Shown here piece after piece: positions 2,572-10,201 of a stretch of 10,928 nt of DNA. The first letter of the stretch is position 1. Each line of letters opens with the position of its first letter. This stretch comes from Turicibacter sp. Lineage in GTDB: Bacteria > Bacillota > Bacilli > MOL361 > Turicibacteraceae. Position numbers and translations under genes: made by a program. Under the pieces are notes generated by a model, which was not told the DNA's origin, did not search any database, and worked only from the letters and a program-made list of their open reading frames with translations. Location of the stretch: assembly GCA_030531025.1 (NCBI GenBank), contig JAUMTV010000100.1, positions 1 through 10,928 of the forward strand, written 5' to 3'.

Positions 2572-2602
2572 AAAGTGACCTTCTGTTATGAAAGGTCACT
2601 TT
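2572..2602 (-). terminator. Terminator of the glycosyltransferase/membrane-protein operon
   Basis: An 11-bp perfect stem (2572-2582 with 2592-2602) has a 9-nt loop and is followed on the minus strand by a T-run. The TAA stop codon (2586-2588) of the membrane protein lies inside the loop, and its last codons form the upstream arm. Confidence 0.85.
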
Positions 2603-3371
2603 CTACTGTTTGTTTTGCTTGTTGATGTTTAATCCATACACTAGTTAACCACGCAAAAATACCTGGGCCAATTAGATAGCAGAGGGTTGATAGTAACGTA
2701 TACGCCACTTGGCTTTTAGCTTGAAGCTTATGAACGAATAAAAATGGCACATTAAATGGTTCGCGTAAAACCATTAAATTTGAGCCATAAATACTATTTA
2801 AAATAATACAAATGACAGCCGATAATAAAAAATAAAGGCTAAAATAAAAATAGGTTGTTCGATTTAATGGAATGCGACGATGACCAATGTACATAACTCC
2901 TAAATAAATCATGAGCATATGAAATAAGAGGCTATACAAACATAAGAAATGCCAGATTGGATATCGCATCAGCGATGTTGTTGGGATGAGTAAAAAAACT
3001 AGTCCTCCAAGTAAACTACCAATAACTATATAAGCATCTCCTACTTTTTTCAAAGTCCCTTTTCCATATCCACTGAGCCATGTGGCGTAAATGAATAATG
3101 AACAAAAGGAAATTGGAAGCCAAGCATCCAATCCTGTGTATCCGTAGTAAAAATTATAGGCAATTTTAACCCCTTCTAAAAGCGTGATAACAATTGCAAT
3201 GAGTCGTGTTATTTTAAGAACAGAATCCCATGATAATTGCTTAGAAACCTTTAAAGCATACCAGACAATTGGAAGACAAATTATTAATGAAATAAAATGA
3301 GGCAATGTAAACATACCTGCTGGTTTGTAAGCATCAATGGGAGCAAAAAATAGTTCGACACACCACTTCAT
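2586..3371 (-). CDS. YwaF/TMEM164-like multispanning membrane protein (TIGR02206 type)
   Basis: This is a polytopic membrane protein of 261 aa with about seven hydrophobic segments. They lie at roughly 25-41, 55-73, 84-100, 112-131, 141-163, 175-195 and 226-249. The signature-like stretches LPISFCSLFIY (third segment) and FLCLYSLLFHMLMIYLG (fifth segment) match the pattern of the YwaF/TMEM164-type family, whose biochemical role in bacteria is not established. Start: the ATG at 3371 has AGGTGA 5 nt upstream. An in-frame GTG at 3380 directly abuts the upstream glycosyltransferase stop (TAG, 3383-3381) and would add three residues with a poorer site. The zero-gap arrangement means co-transcription and probably translational coupling with the glycosyltransferase. 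A role in presenting or moving that enzyme's lipid-linked product is conceivable but only inferred. Confidence 0.85.
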   Translation of the reverse strand: MKWCVELFFAPIDAYKPAGMFTLPHFISLIICLPIVWYALKVSKQLSWDSVLKITRLIAIVITLLEGVKIAYNFYYGYTGLDAWLPISFCSLFIYATWLSGYGKGTLKKVGDAYIVIGSLLGGLVFLLIPTTSLMRYPIWHFLCLYSLLFHMLMIYLGVMYIGHRRIPLNRTTYFYFSLYFLLSAVICIILNSIYGSNLMVLREPFNVPFLFVHKLQAKSQVAYTLLSTLCYLIGPGIFAWLTSVWIKHQQAKQTVESDLS

Positions 3372-3380
3372 AGGATTCAC

Positions 3381-4622
3381 CTAACCTTCTTTTATTTCTG
3401 CTAATGTTTTAGCGCGACTATGTTCAATCGGATGCCATTCCACTTTCTTAAAGAACGCCACAATTGTAATTGGAATATAAGTAAACATAAATAGTGGGAA
3501 CGTGAATATATACGCAATTTTCTTAGCTGAAGTGGTATGGATACTTTTCCATTGAGTAGCCGTTGTTAACGCCCCAATTAAGGCAAGCGTTAAATAGATA
3601 TTCGCAATCATACGACCTAACATCGATAAAATCATCTCTTCCTGATAAATCGTATAATTTCCAAATAAAATAACACTTCCGTTAAAGACTACTGTAAATA
3701 ACGTTAAAACAATAGCTGGCATAATTACCATTAGCATATCATAACATGACGTACTACGTTGTAAGGAACCTTTAAACAAGTCGCGCCCATAACGATGAAA
3801 GACTTGAAAAAATCCTTTAGCCCAACGCATACGCTGTCTAAATGATTGTTGGAATGTCACCGGTTGTTCATCATATAACATAGCGCCTTGACAATAACCG
3901 ATTTTTTCTCCACTCAAAACATTATCTACAGTAAATTGAATATCTTCTGTTAATAAGAAAAATTTCCAGCCTCCATATTTTTCAATAATACGGCGACTAA
4001 AGAAAAATCCAGTCCCTGAGACCGCACAACTTGTTCCAAGTAACATACGCCCACGATTTAAAAATTCCGATTCCCATAAAAACCATAATGCATAACCTGC
4101 TGTAATCCAATTATCCCCGTAATTTTTTGAATTTCGATAACTTGTGATGATATCATATCCATTTGAAAATGTCTTATTCATTTCTAAAATGTAGTTTTGA
4201 TCTAAGAGATTATCGGCATCAAATACAAAATATCCATCAAATGGCTCATAATCATGTTCCATTTTGTCTAGCAAATAATCCATCGCATACCCTTTTCCAA
4301 CCTTTGTTTGGTTGAATCGTTCATAAACAACAGCTCCCATATTTCGAGCACGCTTTGCTGTTGAATCGGTACAATTATCTGCTACCACAAATACGGTTAC
4401 TTCACCTTGATCATATGTCTGTTTATTGATACTATCAATTAAATGTTCGATGACCGCTTCTTCATTACGAGCAGCAATTAATACAGCAAAACGATGTGGC
4501 TTTGCTTCTTGATATGGTTGCTCTTTTTTTAAAAATGATGCAATCACATACAAAAACTGATAGCTATAACAGATGAAGAAAATGATAGCAATCAATAAGT
4601 TAATCAAAATAATCTTTTCCAT
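3381..4622 (-). CDS. Processive-type family 2 glycosyltransferase, membrane bound
   Basis: This 413-aa GT-A enzyme would transfer a sugar from a nucleotide donor at the inner face of the membrane. It has an N-terminal membrane helix (about 5-28) and a cytoplasmic GT2 domain (about 44-285). The C-terminus has two or three further helices (about 297-321, 333-355, 367-391). The full catalytic set is visible: LIAARNEE at 48, D82 in VVADNC, the metal-binding DAD at 135-137, TED at 225-227 and QxxRW (QRMRW, 263-267). This combination is typical of BcsA/IcaA/hyaluronan-synthase-like processive enzymes, but also of glycolipid synthases of similar build, so the product cannot be named. AAGGAG lies 6 nt before the ATG. 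It is the first gene of a two-gene operon and is divergent from a large LTA-synthase-like gene, which suggests a cell-envelope role. Confidence 0.92.
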   Translation of the reverse strand: MEKIILINLLIAIIFFICYSYQFLYVIASFLKKEQPYQEAKPHRFAVLIAARNEEAVIEHLIDSINKQTYDQGEVTVFVVADNCTDSTAKRARNMGAVVYERFNQTKVGKGYAMDYLLDKMEHDYEPFDGYFVFDADNLLDQNYILEMNKTFSNGYDIITSYRNSKNYGDNWITAGYALWFLWESEFLNRGRMLLGTSCAVSGTGFFFSRRIIEKYGGWKFFLLTEDIQFTVDNVLSGEKIGYCQGAMLYDEQPVTFQQSFRQRMRWAKGFFQVFHRYGRDLFKGSLQRSTSCYDMLMVIMPAIVLTLFTVVFNGSVILFGNYTIYQEEMILSMLGRMIANIYLTLALIGALTTATQWKSIHTTSAKKIAYIFTFPLFMFTYIPITIVAFFKKVEWHPIEHSRAKTLAEIKEG

Positions 4623-5237
4623 AGTACTCTCCTTAAATTGACCTAGCAGTCGTTATTATCTGTTTAAAACTCACTCATTTATCTTTCTCACTATTTCAAT
4701 TTAGTCTCTTTATATACAAAGGTAACAAGACAACATTATAGCAGTATTTTTAAAATTTGACATCTATTTTAAAGCATTATGACAGTTTTGTAATATTTGA
4801 ACCGCTTTCCTTTTAGATCTCTTTTTTGTCCATTGCTAAGTCTATTTCCAACTTTAACAGTTGATGGAAACAATGCAGGTATATGTTGTCAAATCTCCTA
4901 TATCTATTTAAAGAGATAGCGTTCTTTTTATCAAGTCATTGGGCTACATCTATACAAAAAATTCATGTTCTTATGATATTTTTTCACATTTACTCCACGT
5001 TTTTTTCGACAAAAAGGACACACCTATTTGTTATTTAAACATATGAGAGACTAATCACAACTGTCTCATTCCAGTCATTAACAAAGATAGAGCTTTTTTT
5101 CGTTAATTATCTGTATAATTCGCTATTTTTCTATCTTTTTTATTAAAACTGGTTTAAAATAAATGAACAAGACCAAATCTAAATGATTCGCATGATACAT
5201 ACGAATTTTATATTTTAATTTGAGCGAGGGAATGACA
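4623..5237. other. Divergent intergenic region, about 615 bp, no gene seen
   Basis: The region lies between the divergent glycosyltransferase and LTA-synthase-like genes and is very AT-rich. I find one convincing promoter (minus strand, 4735-4763). For the plus-strand gene only weak candidates exist, for example an isolated TATAAT at 5114-5119 with no -35. A modest inverted repeat, TTTCCA (4845-4850) with TGGAAA (4865-4870), is present. No ORF with a ribosome site and no tRNA-like fold was recognised. A long 5' leader or a small RNA is possible but unsupported. Confidence 0.5.
4735..4763 (-). promoter_or_regulatory. Sigma-A-type promoter of the glycosyltransferase operon
   Basis: On the minus strand the -35 is ATGTCA (4763-4758), followed by a 17-nt spacer ending in TGC and a consensus -10 TATAAT (4740-4735). 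It is therefore also an extended -10 promoter. It lies about 115 bp upstream of the start codon. Confidence 0.65.
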
Positions 5238-7955
5238 ATGAAAAATAAATTACTATCTATACTACTTGGAGGGTTATCCGCCTATGGGATTTTATCTTGG
5301 ATGACCAGCCAAACACAATCACTTGTATTAGGCGTCACTGTAACACTTCTATGGATTTCTCTTTATGTGTTAGTTGGTCAAAAAACAAAGACCTATGACC
5401 CACTCACAAAAGTTGAGAAAATGATAACCTTGTTATTAACTATTGGTCTTCTCAGCTACACTAACTTGACCATCGAACGACCTCTTTCATTTTTAACTCG
5501 TCCGTATACGATTAGTATTGTCTCAAATGATGAAGCTCATCCTATTGAAATTACTGAAATTAGTGTCAATAATGACAATATCAGTCTAGATGTATTTAAC
5601 GATACTCCTGATTGGAGTTATCAAGAAACATTAGCAACAACTTCTACCTCACCACTTGTTCTTAATGATTTAACCAATGAATCTGTTAGTCTCTCATTTT
5701 TAAAAAATCACCGAGCTGGTAGTGTGTCCATTTATCGAAATGATCAATTAATAAAAACGTTAGACTTATCAAGTGCTGCTGAGTATTCAGTCAAAATCAA
5801 AGCTTCAAAAGATTTTCTTTTCCTTTTAATTCCTGCTTATATTGGAATGTTAGGAACGATTTATCTTTGTTTAACAAAGCTTCTTCAATTTTACCAACGA
5901 AAAATCAACTCATCCAATCTATGGATGAATCGACTGTCTACTGCGAAACTATCCACTCAGACCATCATGTACGGTAGCTTACCTATATTATTCTTAACAC
6001 TCTTTAAGTGGATTGGACTTGCTAACTTAAGCATTCGTCCTCATCTACTAGTAGGCTTTTTTGTTGTAATGCCAATCATCGAAGTTATTTTATTCAAAAG
6101 AAATAAAAACGGTCACTCTGAAAACATTTTCAACTGGTGTCGTACGATTTTTTATCTTTTTTATTGTTCCTTGCTAACGTTTATTGGTATGCAAATCATT
6201 TATTTCTTCCCGAACTTAGATGTGACAATGACATGGATTGCTCATCACGTGAATCTCATGTTTCTATCTTCAACCATTATTTTAAGTATTAGTATCCTAT
6301 ATTATTGTTTATTTAATAATTTAATGTTAGCCATCAGTTTATCTTCAGTATTTATGATCATTGTTGCGATTGCTAACTTCTATAAAATGATGGTCGTTGG
6401 TGAACCGATTTATCCATCAGATGCCTCAATGTTATCCAACATGGAGGATATTATTGGCTACGTTAAAAATATTTTATCGCCTACTCTTTTAATCGGACTA
6501 TTTAGCGGGATTGCTTTACTTGCAATTCTTTCATTCATTTGTCGTAAAGGCTTTAAATTAACAATGAAGCAACGTCTCATTTTCTTTGCTGGGTTTAGCG
6601 TCTACTTAGGATCGATTTTCTATTATGATAAATCACCTCTTCAGCCGCTTGTTAATCAGACAGTCTATTTTACAAAATGGAATCAATTAAATAACTATCA
6701 ACAAAATGGATTTTTATTTGGTTTTATTACGAATCTTCAAAATGACTTAATGATTAAAAATGAGAACTATACAAAGCAAAACATGCAAACTCTCATTGAT
6801 TATTACACTCAAAAAGCAGAAGATTATAATCCATCTAAAGAGCTGACAAATCAACCGAATATTATAACGATTGTTAGTGAATCATTAAGTGATCCACTTG
6901 TTTTTGATCAATTAACATTCAGTGAAGACCCTCTTCCAAATCTTCATCAGTATATGGAAACCTATTCATCAGGAAATTTCTTATCACCATTTAAAGGGAA
7001 TCGTACGGCAAATGTTGAATTTGAATATTTAGTTGGATTCACTAATTCATTATTACTAGAAGGAACGATTCCATTTCAACAAGCACTAAGCACTAAAGAT
7101 CAAATGCCGTCGTTCATTTCCTTTATGACTAACTTAGGTTACTCATCGGTTGCTATCCACCCAAATAACCCGGCATTTTATAAACGAAATATTGTTTATC
7201 CAGCTATCGGCTTCCAACAATTTTTATCAATTAACTCGATGAAAAATCTTGAATATATTGAGAGTCAAAAATATGTGAGTGATCAAGCGGTCTTTGATGA
7301 GCTTTACGATGAACTCACAGCGTCTGAACAACCGATTTTTGCTTATGGATTAACAATGGCAAATCATATTGCAATTTTTGATCAAAAGTTTGGTGAAAAT
7401 ACGATTGAAGTCATCGATTCAACGGGTGAGCATAGTACAGAAATGGAAACATACGCTGAAGGATTAAAACAAAGTGATCGTGCCTTAAAAGAGTTCATCA
7501 CAAAGATTGAAAATTATGATGAACCAACGATTGTCATCTTCTTTGGTGATCACTTAATTAACTTCCAATCTGATATTCATGAACAACATGGATATATTGA
7601 AAAAGATACGGATGCGGCTCGTGCAAAAATGTTCTTTGAAACACCGCTTCTTATTATGTCAAACATGGAAAACTTCAGCATTGAAAACATTGATGATGTG
7701 AGTCCTATCTTTATTGCGCCACTCATCTTAAAGGAGCTAAACTTACCATTATCACCGTTTTATGTCCTCTTACTAGATGTATATGAGCAATTTAGCGTCT
7801 TACACAATAACTTCAAGCTAGACCCTAACCAAAATCAAATTCATGAACTTTCAGACAAACAAGAACAGCTACTACTAGCTCTTGAACTTATTCAATATGA
7901 TATGCTAGAAGGAAAAGAATATACTTCATCAACCTTCTTTAATATTCCTAACTAA
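5238..7955 (+). CDS. LTA synthase-like phosphoglycerol transferase (sulfatase fold), large form
   Basis: This membrane enzyme belongs to the alkaline-phosphatase/sulfatase superfamily, in which LtaS-type members move glycerol phosphate from phosphatidylglycerol onto a growing polymer outside the cell. It has 905 aa against about 650 for classical LtaS. Three N-terminal helices (about 5-22, 28-47, 62-77) are followed by an external strand-rich insert (about 84-190). Then come a helix at about 192-212 and six or so more membrane segments to about 464. The catalytic domain (about 540-835) has E548 (VSES), nucleophile T590 (NRTANVEF), H710 (ANHIAIF) and D771-H772 (FFGDH). These correspond to the metal and catalytic residues of LtaS. 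I chose the ATG at 5238 because GAGGGA lies 6 nt upstream; alternative starts at 5220 (TTG) and 5232 lack a suitably spaced site. Related enzymes also modify glycolipids or other surface polymers, so the exact substrate is open. Confidence 0.9.
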   Translation: MKNKLLSILLGGLSAYGILSWMTSQTQSLVLGVTVTLLWISLYVLVGQKTKTYDPLTKVEKMITLLLTIGLLSYTNLTIERPLSFLTRPYTISIVSNDEAHPIEITEISVNNDNISLDVFNDTPDWSYQETLATTSTSPLVLNDLTNESVSLSFLKNHRAGSVSIYRNDQLIKTLDLSSAAEYSVKIKASKDFLFLLIPAYIGMLGTIYLCLTKLLQFYQRKINSSNLWMNRLSTAKLSTQTIMYGSLPILFLTLFKWIGLANLSIRPHLLVGFFVVMPIIEVILFKRNKNGHSENIFNWCRTIFYLFYCSLLTFIGMQIIYFFPNLDVTMTWIAHHVNLMFLSSTIILSISILYYCLFNNLMLAISLSSVFMIIVAIANFYKMMVVGEPIYPSDASMLSNMEDIIGYVKNILSPTLLIGLFSGIALLAILSFICRKGFKLTMKQRLIFFAGFSVYLGSIFYYDKSPLQPLVNQTVYFTKWNQLNNYQQNGFLFGFITNLQNDLMIKNENYTKQNMQTLIDYYTQKAEDYNPSKELTNQPNIITIVSESLSDPLVFDQLTFSEDPLPNLHQYMETYSSGNFLSPFKGNRTANVEFEYLVGFTNSLLLEGTIPFQQALSTKDQMPSFISFMTNLGYSSVAIHPNNPAFYKRNIVYPAIGFQQFLSINSMKNLEYIESQKYVSDQAVFDELYDELTASEQPIFAYGLTMANHIAIFDQKFGENTIEVIDSTGEHSTEMETYAEGLKQSDRALKEFITKIENYDEPTIVIFFGDHLINFQSDIHEQHGYIEKDTDAARAKMFFETPLLIMSNMENFSIENIDDVSPIFIAPLILKELNLPLSPFYVLLLDVYEQFSVLHNNFKLDPNQNQIHELSDKQEQLLLALELIQYDMLEGKEYTSSTFFNIPN

Positions 7956-7989: not shown

Positions 7990-8553
7990 AAAAGCATGAT
8001 GACCCTATTTACTTACACTGTGTTAAACATTTCTTTTAATAAGTTCAATAGAGCTCTCTAACTATAATAAGCTGACTGTAAAAACATTCAAAGTAAGTTT
8101 ATAACAACGTCAAGTTCCATCAAACCCGATAATTTAGCTTTAACCATGAATAACAACTAATCGATTAAATGATATTTCTTTAATTTCATCACTTATCCTT
8201 ATTATTATAACGAATTGTTTGAAAACTCATTTGTCTAAGGGAACGATTTGACTTCATTACGAAAGTCATGACATTTGTCAGTCTAGCATTGCACATGACA
8301 AATAGCAATTTATGATATCGCACCGTCCTACCAAGACAATTAATGTGAGCATATCCTGTTTGTATTCTATCAAAAGTAATCACAAGGTCCTTGTAGGACA
8401 AACTAAATAAAATTACAATTGATTGAGAGAAACTATTTATTATCTTTTCGTATTCAATAATATTATGTATAACCCCTCTAATAAAGGATATCTATTGATA
8501 TTAACTAATTTAATCAGAATCATTTATTAATAATTGGAAAATTTCATGAAATA
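7990..8553. other. Gene-poor AT-rich region before the IS element
   Basis: About 560 bp without a gene I can support. A 70-codon minus-strand frame (8189-8401) begins with TTG, has no ribosome site and resembles nothing I recognise; it may be a decayed gene. Small palindromes occur: ATTTGTCA (8273-8280) with TGACAAAT (8296-8303), and the perfect 12-bp ATTTCATGAAAT (8541-8552), which abuts the deduced left end of the IS. Confidence 0.45.
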
Positions 8554-8567
8554 GGCCTTGTCAAGTT

Positions 8568-8580
8568 AAGTGTGTAAACT
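8568..8580 (+). repeat. IS left inner inverted repeat
   Basis: AAGTGTGTAAACT is perfectly complementary to 9964-9976 at the other end of the element. The deduced ancestral transposase stop (8591-8593) is only 10 bp inside it. Confidence 0.85.
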
Positions 8581-8612
8581 TTTTTAAAAATTATAGAAAT
8601 AGTGTTAATCTA

Positions 8613-9863
8613 TCAGGATATAAAATTAATAATTGGTTTAATATTTGACCCCAGTTTGATAGTTGTCTTTTCCATTTCTTTGTAACCTCCATTCCCTAGC
8701 AGTTGAGGATGGTTCACTTCGTTCTCTGCCAGGGGACTCATGGTTTGAAGATAGATTAACTTCATGACAGCTGTGTCATTTGGAAAGGCTCCTTTGCCTT
8801 TTAACACTTTTCTCAATTGACTATTATAGCTTTCAATTGAGTTCGTTGTATCAATCATTTTTCTAATTTCTTTCGGAAAATTAAATAATTGGTAGATTTC
8901 CTCAATGTTATTTTCCCAAACCCTAACAGCTAATGGAATAAGTGGTGTCCACTTCGTTTTAAAGGACTCAAATGCTTGTTCAGCCGCCACTCGATTAATC
9001 GCTTGATAGATTTGTTTCAGATCATAACAGAACGGTTTACGATCTTGATAGGATACAAATTGAGTTGATTGCCGAATGAGATGGACCAAACACCGTTGGA
9101 CTAAGGCATGCGGAAAAACAGCTTGAATTGCTTGTTTAAAACCACTTAATCCATCAACACAAGCAATACAGATGTCTTGAACTCCACGAGCCTTTAATTC
9201 ATCTAACAAACTCATCCAATATAAGGCACTTTCAGCTTCTCCAATGGAAATGCTTAAGACGTCTTTACGACCATCTAAAGAGACTTCGATGATGCAATAA
9301 ACAGCCTTATTTGCTGCGCCCATCCCTTCTTTAACTTTGACATGAAGTGCATCTAAATAAATAATAGGATAAACGGATTCAAGCGAACGTTGTTGCCATT
9401 CTTGAATGAGTGGAATAATTTTATCTGTCACGTTAGAAATGGTTTCATGTGATGTTTCAAACCCATAAATTTCTTCTAATGTTTTTGAAATATCTCGTGT
9501 TGATAATCCCTTCGCATAAAGGCTTAGAATCTTATCCTCAATTCCAATGACGTTTGTTTGACGTTTAGATACAATTTGTAGCTCAAAAGAACCATCACGA
9601 TCTCTGGGAGTTTGAATGGTTGTCTCACCCAATCGTGTCTGAATAGTTTTATTCTTACGTCCATTTCTAGAATTTGAAGTTGATTTATTACGAAAGTCAT
9701 ATCGACTATATCCTAAGTGTTGATCTAACTCAGCCTCGAGTGCTTGTTCAATAAAACCACCAAACATGTCTAATAAAGCTGATTCAACATCACTAGCTGA
9801 TTTAAGGTCATACTCTTCTTGCATTAAGTTAAATAATTGATTTATTGCAGCTCTTCGTGTCAT
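8613..9863 (-). CDS. IS256-family (mutator-type) transposase, C-terminus altered by a 49-bp insertion
   Basis: This DDE transposase reads as 416 aa from the ATG at 9863 (AAGGGAG lies 7 nt upstream; the TTG six bases earlier is too close to that site). The catalytic residues are visible: D171 in YLDALHVKV, D237 in CVDGLSGF and E344 in NSIESYNSQLRK. The family's C-x-x-H pair (RCLVH, about 258-261) is also present. From residue 376 onward the sequence stops resembling the family. If the bases between the two CAT triplets at 8690-8692 and 8739-8741 plus one CAT (49 bp) are removed, the frame continues MEVTKKW, then NWGQILNQL and LYPDR. It ends at TAA 8593-8591, giving about 407 aa with the canonical IS256 tail. 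The gene is therefore broken near its 3' end, and activity of the altered protein is doubtful because the conserved terminal W residues are lost. Confidence 0.92.
   Translation of the reverse strand: MTRRAAINQLFNLMQEEYDLKSASDVESALLDMFGGFIEQALEAELDQHLGYSRYDFRNKSTSNSRNGRKNKTIQTRLGETTIQTPRDRDGSFELQIVSKRQTNVIGIEDKILSLYAKGLSTRDISKTLEEIYGFETSHETISNVTDKIIPLIQEWQQRSLESVYPIIYLDALHVKVKEGMGAANKAVYCIIEVSLDGRKDVLSISIGEAESALYWMSLLDELKARGVQDICIACVDGLSGFKQAIQAVFPHALVQRCLVHLIRQSTQFVSYQDRKPFCYDLKQIYQAINRVAAEQAFESFKTKWTPLIPLAVRVWENNIEEIYQLFNFPKEIRKMIDTTNSIESYNSQLRKVLKGKGAFPNDTAVMKLIYLQTMSPLAENEVNHPQLLGNGGYKEMEKTTIKLGSNIKPIINFIS
8690..8741. repeat. 46-bp palindromic insertion in the transposase gene, flanked by CAT
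   Basis: The segment 8693-8738 begins TCCCTAGCAG and ends CTGCCAGGGGACT. Its ends are complementary apart from one bulge and one G-T pair, and it is bracketed by CAT at 8690-8692 and 8739-8741. Its excision with one CAT restores the transposase reading frame exactly. Bases 8689-8710 recur perfectly, in inverted orientation, at 9929-9950. The centre (8711-8727) differs from the second copy. Confidence 0.75.
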
Positions 9864-9895
9864 ATGCAAACTCCCTTATTAATAGTTAACTTATT

Positions 9896-9949
9896 ATGGG
9901 TCACCTGGCGATTATCGTAGATAATCTAATCCTCAACTGCTAGGGAATG
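9896..9949. repeat. 48-bp palindromic repeat in the transposase leader, second family member
   Basis: The segment 9899-9946 lies between two ATG triplets (9896-9898 and 9947-9949). It shares 22 bp perfectly with 8689-8710 in inverted orientation. The opposite arm including its flank (minus strand GCCAGGTGACCCAT) matches the first copy at 12 of 14 positions. The centre is unrelated and forms its own perfect hairpin, GATTATC-GTA-GATAATC (9910-9926). It lies 33 bp upstream of the transposase start, so it could fold in the mRNA leader. Confidence 0.7.
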
Positions 9950-9963
9950 GTAACTGTTCCAAG

Positions 9964-9976
9964 AGTTTACACACTT
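9964..9976 (-). repeat. IS right inner inverted repeat
   Basis: AGTTTACACACTT is the exact complement of 8568-8580 and lies about 100 bp upstream of the transposase start. Confidence 0.85.
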
Positions 9977-10201
9977 TATCTTACAACCTCAATTACTTGC
10001 TAAAGTTAATGACATCACTGAAATCATCAATTTCTTTATCATATCAGTCACCTCGTATCATAATTTGCGAAGTTATCATACAATGTATGATTAAAGCTTT
10101 TATTAACTTAGGTACGTTAATATCATTAAATAAAACCCTTTATATTACCTATAATAAAAATCTATTTAGATTAACTATATTTTAAATAAAGGTTGCTACT
10201 C

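Follow-up and report, generated by a model that had tools for sequence, protein, structure and literature searches.

Two related hairpin-like segments of 46 and 48 bp in one IS256-family insertion sequence of a Turicibacter contig

The insertion sequence and its surroundings

The window, meaning the whole stretch of DNA analysed here (10,928 nucleotides of a contig from Turicibacter sp.), carries on its minus strand an insertion sequence (IS) of the IS256 family with approximate bounds at 8558-9986 and aligned terminal inverted repeats TTGTAAGATAAAGTGTGTAAACT / TTGTCAAGTTAAGTGTGTAAACT. The transposase frame of this IS (8613-9863, minus strand) spans 416 amino acids from the ATG at 9863; it is family-like up to M375 and then continues as a shifted, unrelated tail of 41 residues. 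In a Pfam search the transposase matched PF00872 (Mutator-type, E 1.6e-104, residues 19-376), and it is this Mutator-type transposase inside terminal inverted repeats that places the element in the IS256 family. Members of this family are usually flanked by a short target duplication. The flanks of the present copy, GGCCTATTTCA and AGTAATTGAGG, taken at IS ends whose positions are approximate, differ from each other, and because no matching duplication is present the IS is either old or had one flank rearranged.

Relatives of the transposase and of the whole IS were searched for in several collections. In a scan of public genomes for close transposase relatives, 28 stretches fitted the search pattern and one of them encoded a relative (47% identical, from a Saprospiraceae MAG); two scans of viral contigs gave 4 and 22 fitting stretches, none of which encoded a relative. 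Distant blastn with the whole IS returned short stretches of 60-80% identity in four plasmid records and one phage record, and at the protein level all relatives of the transposase in phages and plasmids were below 60% identity. A scan of the transposase against anti-phage families gave no match. Among the families found in the window, no Y1 transposase, nor any transposase besides the IS256 one, was seen. Elsewhere in the window, the regions 202-1988 and 2586-7955 encode a histidine kinase, a response regulator, a TMEM164-like membrane protein, a family-2 glycosyltransferase and a large sulfatase-domain protein, which we take to be 'LTA-synthase-like'; together they look like a cell-envelope locus.

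A 46-bp segment interrupts the transposase gene

The segment of interest, called element A, lies at 8693-8738 on the minus strand, is 46 bp long and reads AGTCCCCTGGCAG...CTGCTAGGGA. In the orientation of the element it is flanked by ATG (CAT on the plus strand) on its 5' side at 8739-8741 and on its 3' side at 8690-8692, so that the transposase strand reads ATG-AGTCCCCTGGCAGAGAACGAAGTGAACCATCCTCAACTGCTAGGGA-ATG; the initial annotation had placed the segment and both CAT triplets at exactly these positions. The net insertion amounts to 49 bp after codon 375 (46 bp plus one CAT) and shifts the frame, so that the transposase, usually 407 residues long, has its final 32 residues replaced. Deletions of 0-119 bp around the site were scored against the uninterrupted relative P0007, and the best fit was obtained with the 49-bp deletion (score 194), followed by a length of 46 bp (183). 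Once the 49 bp are taken out, the reading across the join shares 37 of 41 residues with P0007 and 36 of 41 with P0005. Removal of the 49 bp thus restores the transposase, as had been proposed from the reading frame, with an insertion point that can be placed at five neighbouring positions equally well at the protein level.

The protein comparison covers 120 listed proteins from a total of 5636 matches; their identity to the query is 87-100%, and two of them, P0035 and P0059, come from sources named Turicibacter. In 116 of the 120 listed proteins the sequence runs uninterrupted through the junction, reading MKLIYLQ followed by T(I/M/V)E.TKKW or TIDVT.KW, which bears out the earlier observation that the window's frame leaves the family after M375. 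Insert A is present in three of the 120 (P0001, which is the window's own protein, P0003 and P0004), while one, P0002, has a different tail of 17 residues. The objection that close relatives might all carry or encode the segment is therefore answered in the negative for the proteins listed, and a region search with the window's shifted tail returned P0001, P0003 and P0004 and nothing else. Since uninterrupted proteins read through the site and the 49-bp deletion restores the fit, these alignments render it well supported that A was inserted into the transposase gene.

The flanking triplet is less easily assigned. The initial annotation had interpreted CAT as a 3-bp target repeat, and the triplet is indeed found on both sides of A. 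At the position of the window's Met (ATG), however, the 116 uninterrupted listed proteins have Ile in 111 cases, Met in four and Val in one, and the two closest of them, P0005 and P0006 (93-95% identical), have Ile. Because Ile is the usual residue in relatives, a target duplication at A is unproven and the ATG is possibly the element's own; judged from these residues, A may itself have brought in the flanking CAT/ATG.

The four deviant proteins P0001-P0004 have five residues in common (D90, S160, E193, T306 and I309) which occur in none of the 116 other listed proteins. As these residues are private to the four proteins, we regard the four as one lineage, and by this pattern A most likely entered one lineage, once. 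At residues 160 and 193, P0005 and P0059 have P and G, as opposed to S160/E193 in the deviants, a pattern that is consistent with a decaying lineage. The proteins carrying A are encoded on contigs of 9.4, 10.9 and 16 kb, i.e. three of three exceed 9 kb as compared to five of the 116 uninterrupted listed proteins (Fisher p 0.0002; hand counts, one of the three A contigs being the window, and P0002 on its 1411-bp contig left out). This comparison, which is confounded by sequencing depth, suggests that the interrupted IS copies are single and immobile rather than multicopy.

A second, related segment in the IS leader

A second related segment in the same IS had been overlooked in the initial annotation. 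Element B (48 bp, GGTCACCTGGC...GCTAGGGA) occupies 9899-9946 of the plus strand, lies within the IS leader and is oriented opposite to A. It is flanked by ATG at 9896-9898 (5') and 9947-9949 (3'); the stretch 9896-9949 thus reads ATG-GGTCACCTGGCGATTATCGTAGATAATCTAATCCTCAACTGCTAGGGA-ATG and is followed by CATAATAAG. From the conserved TGTGTA at the IS end to the start codon of the transposase we counted 104 bases in the window. Among seven named plasmid IS256 relatives, the five having this motif gave 48, 49, 56, 61 and 67 bases (the 56 is that of L020, which has another TGTGTA at 70), and two were without TGTGTA. The leader of the window's IS is therefore over-long by about 51 bp (104 minus 51 gives 53), in a comparison that relies on annotated start codons and on distant relatives whose leaders vary by 19 bp among themselves; four of the five measured relatives are 48-51% identical to P0059, and the fifth (L026) was taken from the whole-IS blastn. 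Because of the excess length relative to the measured relatives, B looks inserted too.

By eye, a -10-like stretch (TATAAT, GATAAT or TAATAT) follows shortly after TGTGTA in L020, L023, L024 and L026. B puts a -10-like CATAAT hexamer 51 bp farther from the IS end and may in this way have split the IS promoter. A promoter scan gave no minus-strand match in the region. We also considered that B brings a sigma-70 promoter of its own, but both scan matches lie on the plus strand within the gene, and a role as Rho-independent terminator was likewise dismissed, the sole terminator-like site in 8540-10050 lying elsewhere.

A and B share their ends, not their middles

The relationship between the two elements is most evident at their right ends, which together with the flanking ATGG form a block of 22 nt present as an exact inverted repeat (I1) at 8689-8710 (minus strand, A) and 9929-9950 (plus strand, B). 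Within the elements the right ends are identical at 18 of 18 bases and the left ends at 9 of 11, giving a consensus of RGTCMCCTGGC (11 bp) on the left, a free middle of 17-19 bp and ATCCTCAACTGCTAGGGA (18 bp) on the right. The middles (17 bp in A, 19 bp in B) align no better than shuffled sequence, their alignment being matched by 478 of 2000 shuffles. In P0003 and P0004 the protein reads MGP where the window has MSP, and back-translation indicates that the left end of A in these two is probably GGTC, as in B.

Local alignment of the A region with the B region scored 30.5, compared to a maximum of 15.5 over 2000 random window stretches outside the IS region. A 15-base core, CCTCAACTGCTAGGG, which was picked with the sequence already in view, has two occurrences in the window (8694-8708, minus strand, and 9931-9945, plus strand) where 0.06 are expected when three mismatches are allowed, and the pattern CCTGGC-N(5-35)-GCTAGG, chosen with both copies already known, is found at these two sites only in the 10.9-kb window (shuffle mean 0.00). 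ATG is present on both sides of both elements; by simple arithmetic with equal base use, the chance of the same triplet at two independent 3-bp targets is about 1 in 64. The possibility that A and B are the terminal repeats of a 1.26-kb inner unit was rejected, since the fits at A and at B favour two separate short insertions. Taken at sequence level, constrained ends with unlike middles would fit two family members better than one locally copied piece.

Hairpin potential

Both elements can form a near-terminal stem with an unpaired foot on one side only. The stem of A has 9 pairs when G-T is allowed, which is reached by 4 of 5000 dinucleotide shuffles and agrees with the complementary ends pointed out in the initial annotation; the stem of B has 7 pairs (125 of 5000 shuffles), which is weak evidence by itself. 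The same G-T pair is kept in both stems. To the left of the stem lies an unpaired foot, AGTC in A (four bases) and GGTC in B, with five unpaired bases before the stem in B, and the loops inside the outer stems measure 23 nt in A and 29 nt in B.

Bare A folded with z -1.8 as RNA (9 of 200 shuffles as good) and z -1.2 as DNA, and bare B with z -1.6 in both cases. Folding of the bare complementary DNA strands was poorer (z -0.3 for A and -0.8 for B), and the complement of B with flanks gave z -1.7 as RNA, so that a strand preference of folding is only suggested and not clear-cut. With its flanks, A was unremarkable (RNA z -0.9, 31 of 200 shuffles; DNA z -0.35, 78 of 200). What distinguishes the two elements is accordingly the combination of constrained ends with free middles and not the folding energy, which only modestly beats shuffles. 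Rfam gave no match in the window at the gathering score.

Search for further copies

No third copy was found elsewhere in the 10.9-kb window. In IMG/VR the 15-base core matched 10 stretches, whose flanks were unlike the element by eye. The pattern CCTGGC-gap-CAACTGCTAGGRA matched 6 stretches, five being variants of one sequence and one lying on a contig of 62% GC; judged by eye, all six lacked both the RGTC foot and a flanking ATG. Three further element patterns gave no match in IMG/VR, and plasmids and phages queried by BLAST with A and with B yielded only short matches with E 0.8 or worse. Overall, no convincing copy outside this IS lineage was found in IMG/VR (five element patterns), plasmids or phages. 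A protein search from the translations of A and B (11 candidates) returned only P0003 and P0004; this search is of low sensitivity (28 bits for 19 exact residues) and is confined to proteins of about 155-491 aa. P0001, with one residue changed in the queried stretch, was missing from its output. Literature searches combining Turicibacter with repeat, MITE, insertion sequence or RAYT brought up no description of such a repeat among the matches listed.

Interpretation and rival explanations

Our favoured explanation, which we consider probable, is that one IS256 copy in a Turicibacter-like bacterium received two insertions from a single family of very small, non-autonomous, hairpin-forming repeats. 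The idea of a non-autonomous mobile repeat had already been put forward for A; it is now strongly supported by a related segment within that IS which is itself an apparent insertion, but no convincing third copy turned up in the window or in the IMG/VR, plasmid and phage searches. We infer both the mobility of the repeat and its mechanism. The repeat would be mobilised in trans, its ends or its single-strand hairpin being what the responsible enzyme recognises, and the fixed ends with a free middle argue for end recognition by an enzyme supplied elsewhere. Single-strand transposition by Y1 enzymes is known from the IS200/IS605 and RAYT/REP systems. The likeliest mover would be such a Y1 transposase (IS200/IS605 or RAYT type) acting beside ATG, and a DDE transposase leaving a 3-bp duplication would be less likely; provided that the repeat is mobile at all, this is a tentative preference, held because of the unpaired foot, the asymmetry of the ends and the recurrence of ATG as flanking triplet at both sites. 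The shared triplet would be explained just as well by a preferred target site, or by ATG being the element's own end, as by a 3-bp duplication. The IS copy itself is probably dead, because A replaces the end of its transposase and B displaces the -10-like hexamer, and it would be a bystander host of the repeats and not their mover. Going further, A and B might belong to a hitherto undescribed kind of minimal mobile hairpin of Bacillota that prefers certain sites, namely a single stem-loop of 46-48 bp whose ends are fixed and whose middle can be exchanged and which is inserted beside ATG by a Y1-type transposase in trans, without the two-hairpin architecture of REPINs; this we regard as speculative and rather unlikely.

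A variant within the mobile reading, which does not exclude the favoured explanation, takes A and B as very small MITEs that a DDE transposase would have inserted, duplicating a 3-bp target, ATG. The triplet on both sides of both copies and the partly complementary ends speak for it, but the ends are asymmetric, with four unpaired bases in A and five in B preceding the stem on the left, the same triplet at two targets requires luck (about 1 in 64, as above) or a target preference, and no parent transposon with these ends was found. Moreover, where ATG should pre-exist, 111 of 116 uninterrupted listed relatives have Ile, the closest two included, and this recount of Ile and Met made us lower our estimate of the variant a little, leaving it unlikely. 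Also unlikely is that B is native to the IS leader and that part of it (the right end) was copied by template switching, in inverted orientation, into the other end of the IS as A. This would account for two elements lying inverted within one IS with 22 exact bases in common, and it agrees with the lack of copies elsewhere in the window, IMG/VR, plasmids and phages searched. However, the left ends match too (9 of 11 bases plus ATG) while the middles of 17-19 bp do not, which argues against one copying event, as this would carry the middle along; the leaders of five relatives also leave no room for B, although these relatives are distant, so that B could be native to the Turicibacter lineage.

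We consider it improbable that A and B are a conserved regulatory RNA or DNA hairpin of this IS group that is not mobile. Their complementary ends and the same G-T pair kept in both would be expected of such a hairpin, but A breaks a coding sequence through which 116 of 120 listed proteins read, the two elements are oppositely oriented relative to the gene, folding is modest and Rfam at the gathering score is silent. Ribosomes might also bypass A, leaving the message at the ATG that precedes A and resuming at the in-frame ATG beyond, in which case the transposase would still be made. A possible hairpin is indeed bracketed by two matching in-frame ATG codons at a spacing of 49 nt, and precedents are described in parts of PMC5009743 for T4 gene 60, where 50 nt are skipped between matched GGA codons, and for Magnusiomyces mitochondria, with 81 skipped inserts. 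The gap in T4 gene 60, as portrayed there, resembles A in its size of about 50 nt, the identical codons and the stem-loop; the stop codon beside its take-off site, however, has no counterpart at A, where the frame stays open for 41 codons. Since B lies outside the transposase frame, a third of all 3-bp repeats are in frame by chance and the clade-private residues of the deviant proteins are consistent with decay, we give bypassing almost no credence. The same applies to an assembly artefact: the window is a short contig, but P0003 and P0004 carry the same insert on two other contigs (9.4 and 16 kb).

Comparison with known small repeats

REPs are portrayed in PMC3733652 and PMC3116915 as very short hairpins with a four-base unpaired foot and stems of 5-13 bp, in which G-T pairs are frequent and some of which lie within ORFs. 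A and B resemble this portrayal in being short hairpin DNA with an unpaired foot and a G-T pair, and A in lying inside an ORF. One REP group has the foot GTAG; another has CGTC, TGTC or CCTC with a stem of 8-9 bp, a loop of 4-5 bp and a short unpaired tail (PMC3733652, in its description of the groups). The feet of A and B are AGTC and GGTC and therefore neither GTAG nor one of the CGTC type, their loops of 23 and 29 nt are longer than the 2-20 or 4-5 given there for the two groups, and only the 9-pair stem of A fits the CGTC type. By sequence, A and B would thus be REP-like or MITE-like in look and not members of the GTAG or CGTC REPs; the word 'Firmicutes' is absent from the main text of PMC3733652 on REPs. 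A REPIN system comprises two inverted REPs that move jointly and a RAYT gene in the genome, and it is such a hairpin pair that is suggested to be mobile (PMC3116915, in its treatment of REPINs). In the window, A and B are single units more than 1 kb apart.

RUP is introduced in PMC2229807 as a pneumococcal MITE of 107 bp that inserts at TA, has terminal repeats like those of IS630-Spn1 and inactivates transposase genes of more than six IS families. Bacterial MITEs, as outlined in PMC2229807 and PMC10969869, have terminal inverted repeats, a target-site duplication and multiple dispersed copies, together with a parent transposase. Of the present repeat two copies are seen, A and B, both in one IS; they have what may be inverted ends and an apparent short duplication and would, like RUP, be non-autonomous. 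Unlike RUP, they measure 46-48 bp, lie beside ATG and have no known parent IS. Repeats like A and B may disable IS copies, in the way that is reported for RUP. The Rickettsia palindromic elements mentioned in PMC2229807 (105-146 bp) are inserted in genes and fused in frame; A is likewise palindromic and in a gene, but shifts the frame.

Two insertions in one IS, as proposed for A and B, would also illustrate that transposons are safe places to land. Elhai et al. 2008 reportedly dealt with the small dispersed repeats (SDR) of cyanobacteria. These repeats are very small, and one of them, SDR5, goes into HIP1 precisely at one fixed position, according to short accounts in PMC4390886 and PMC3116915; A and B are similarly tiny, differ in host phylum and target and are likened to SDR by description only. 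If A and B proved to be dispersed in Turicibacter, their conserved ends and free middles would reveal which features the transposing enzyme needs to recognise, and the family would raise the question of whether a single hairpin can move. To our knowledge, the family would then, with copies elsewhere in Turicibacter genomes, be among the shortest mobile DNAs in Bacillota.

Further observations on B and P0002

The middle of B (9910-9926) is a perfect 7-bp inverted repeat, GATTATC-GTA-GATAATC, and none was seen by eye in the middle of A. The body of P0002 is 99% identical to the window's transposase, and its tail, ILGHLAQCQQLKGNHND, follows LQ at the same place (residues 374-390). When this tail was tried as a third variant of the element, GHLA and QLKGN, read in the frame of the element, resembled its ends, but an equally good alignment was reached by 335 of 5000 shuffles and the idea was set aside; the back-translated tail had no match in IMG/VR. 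The tail may represent a third variant or an assembly join.
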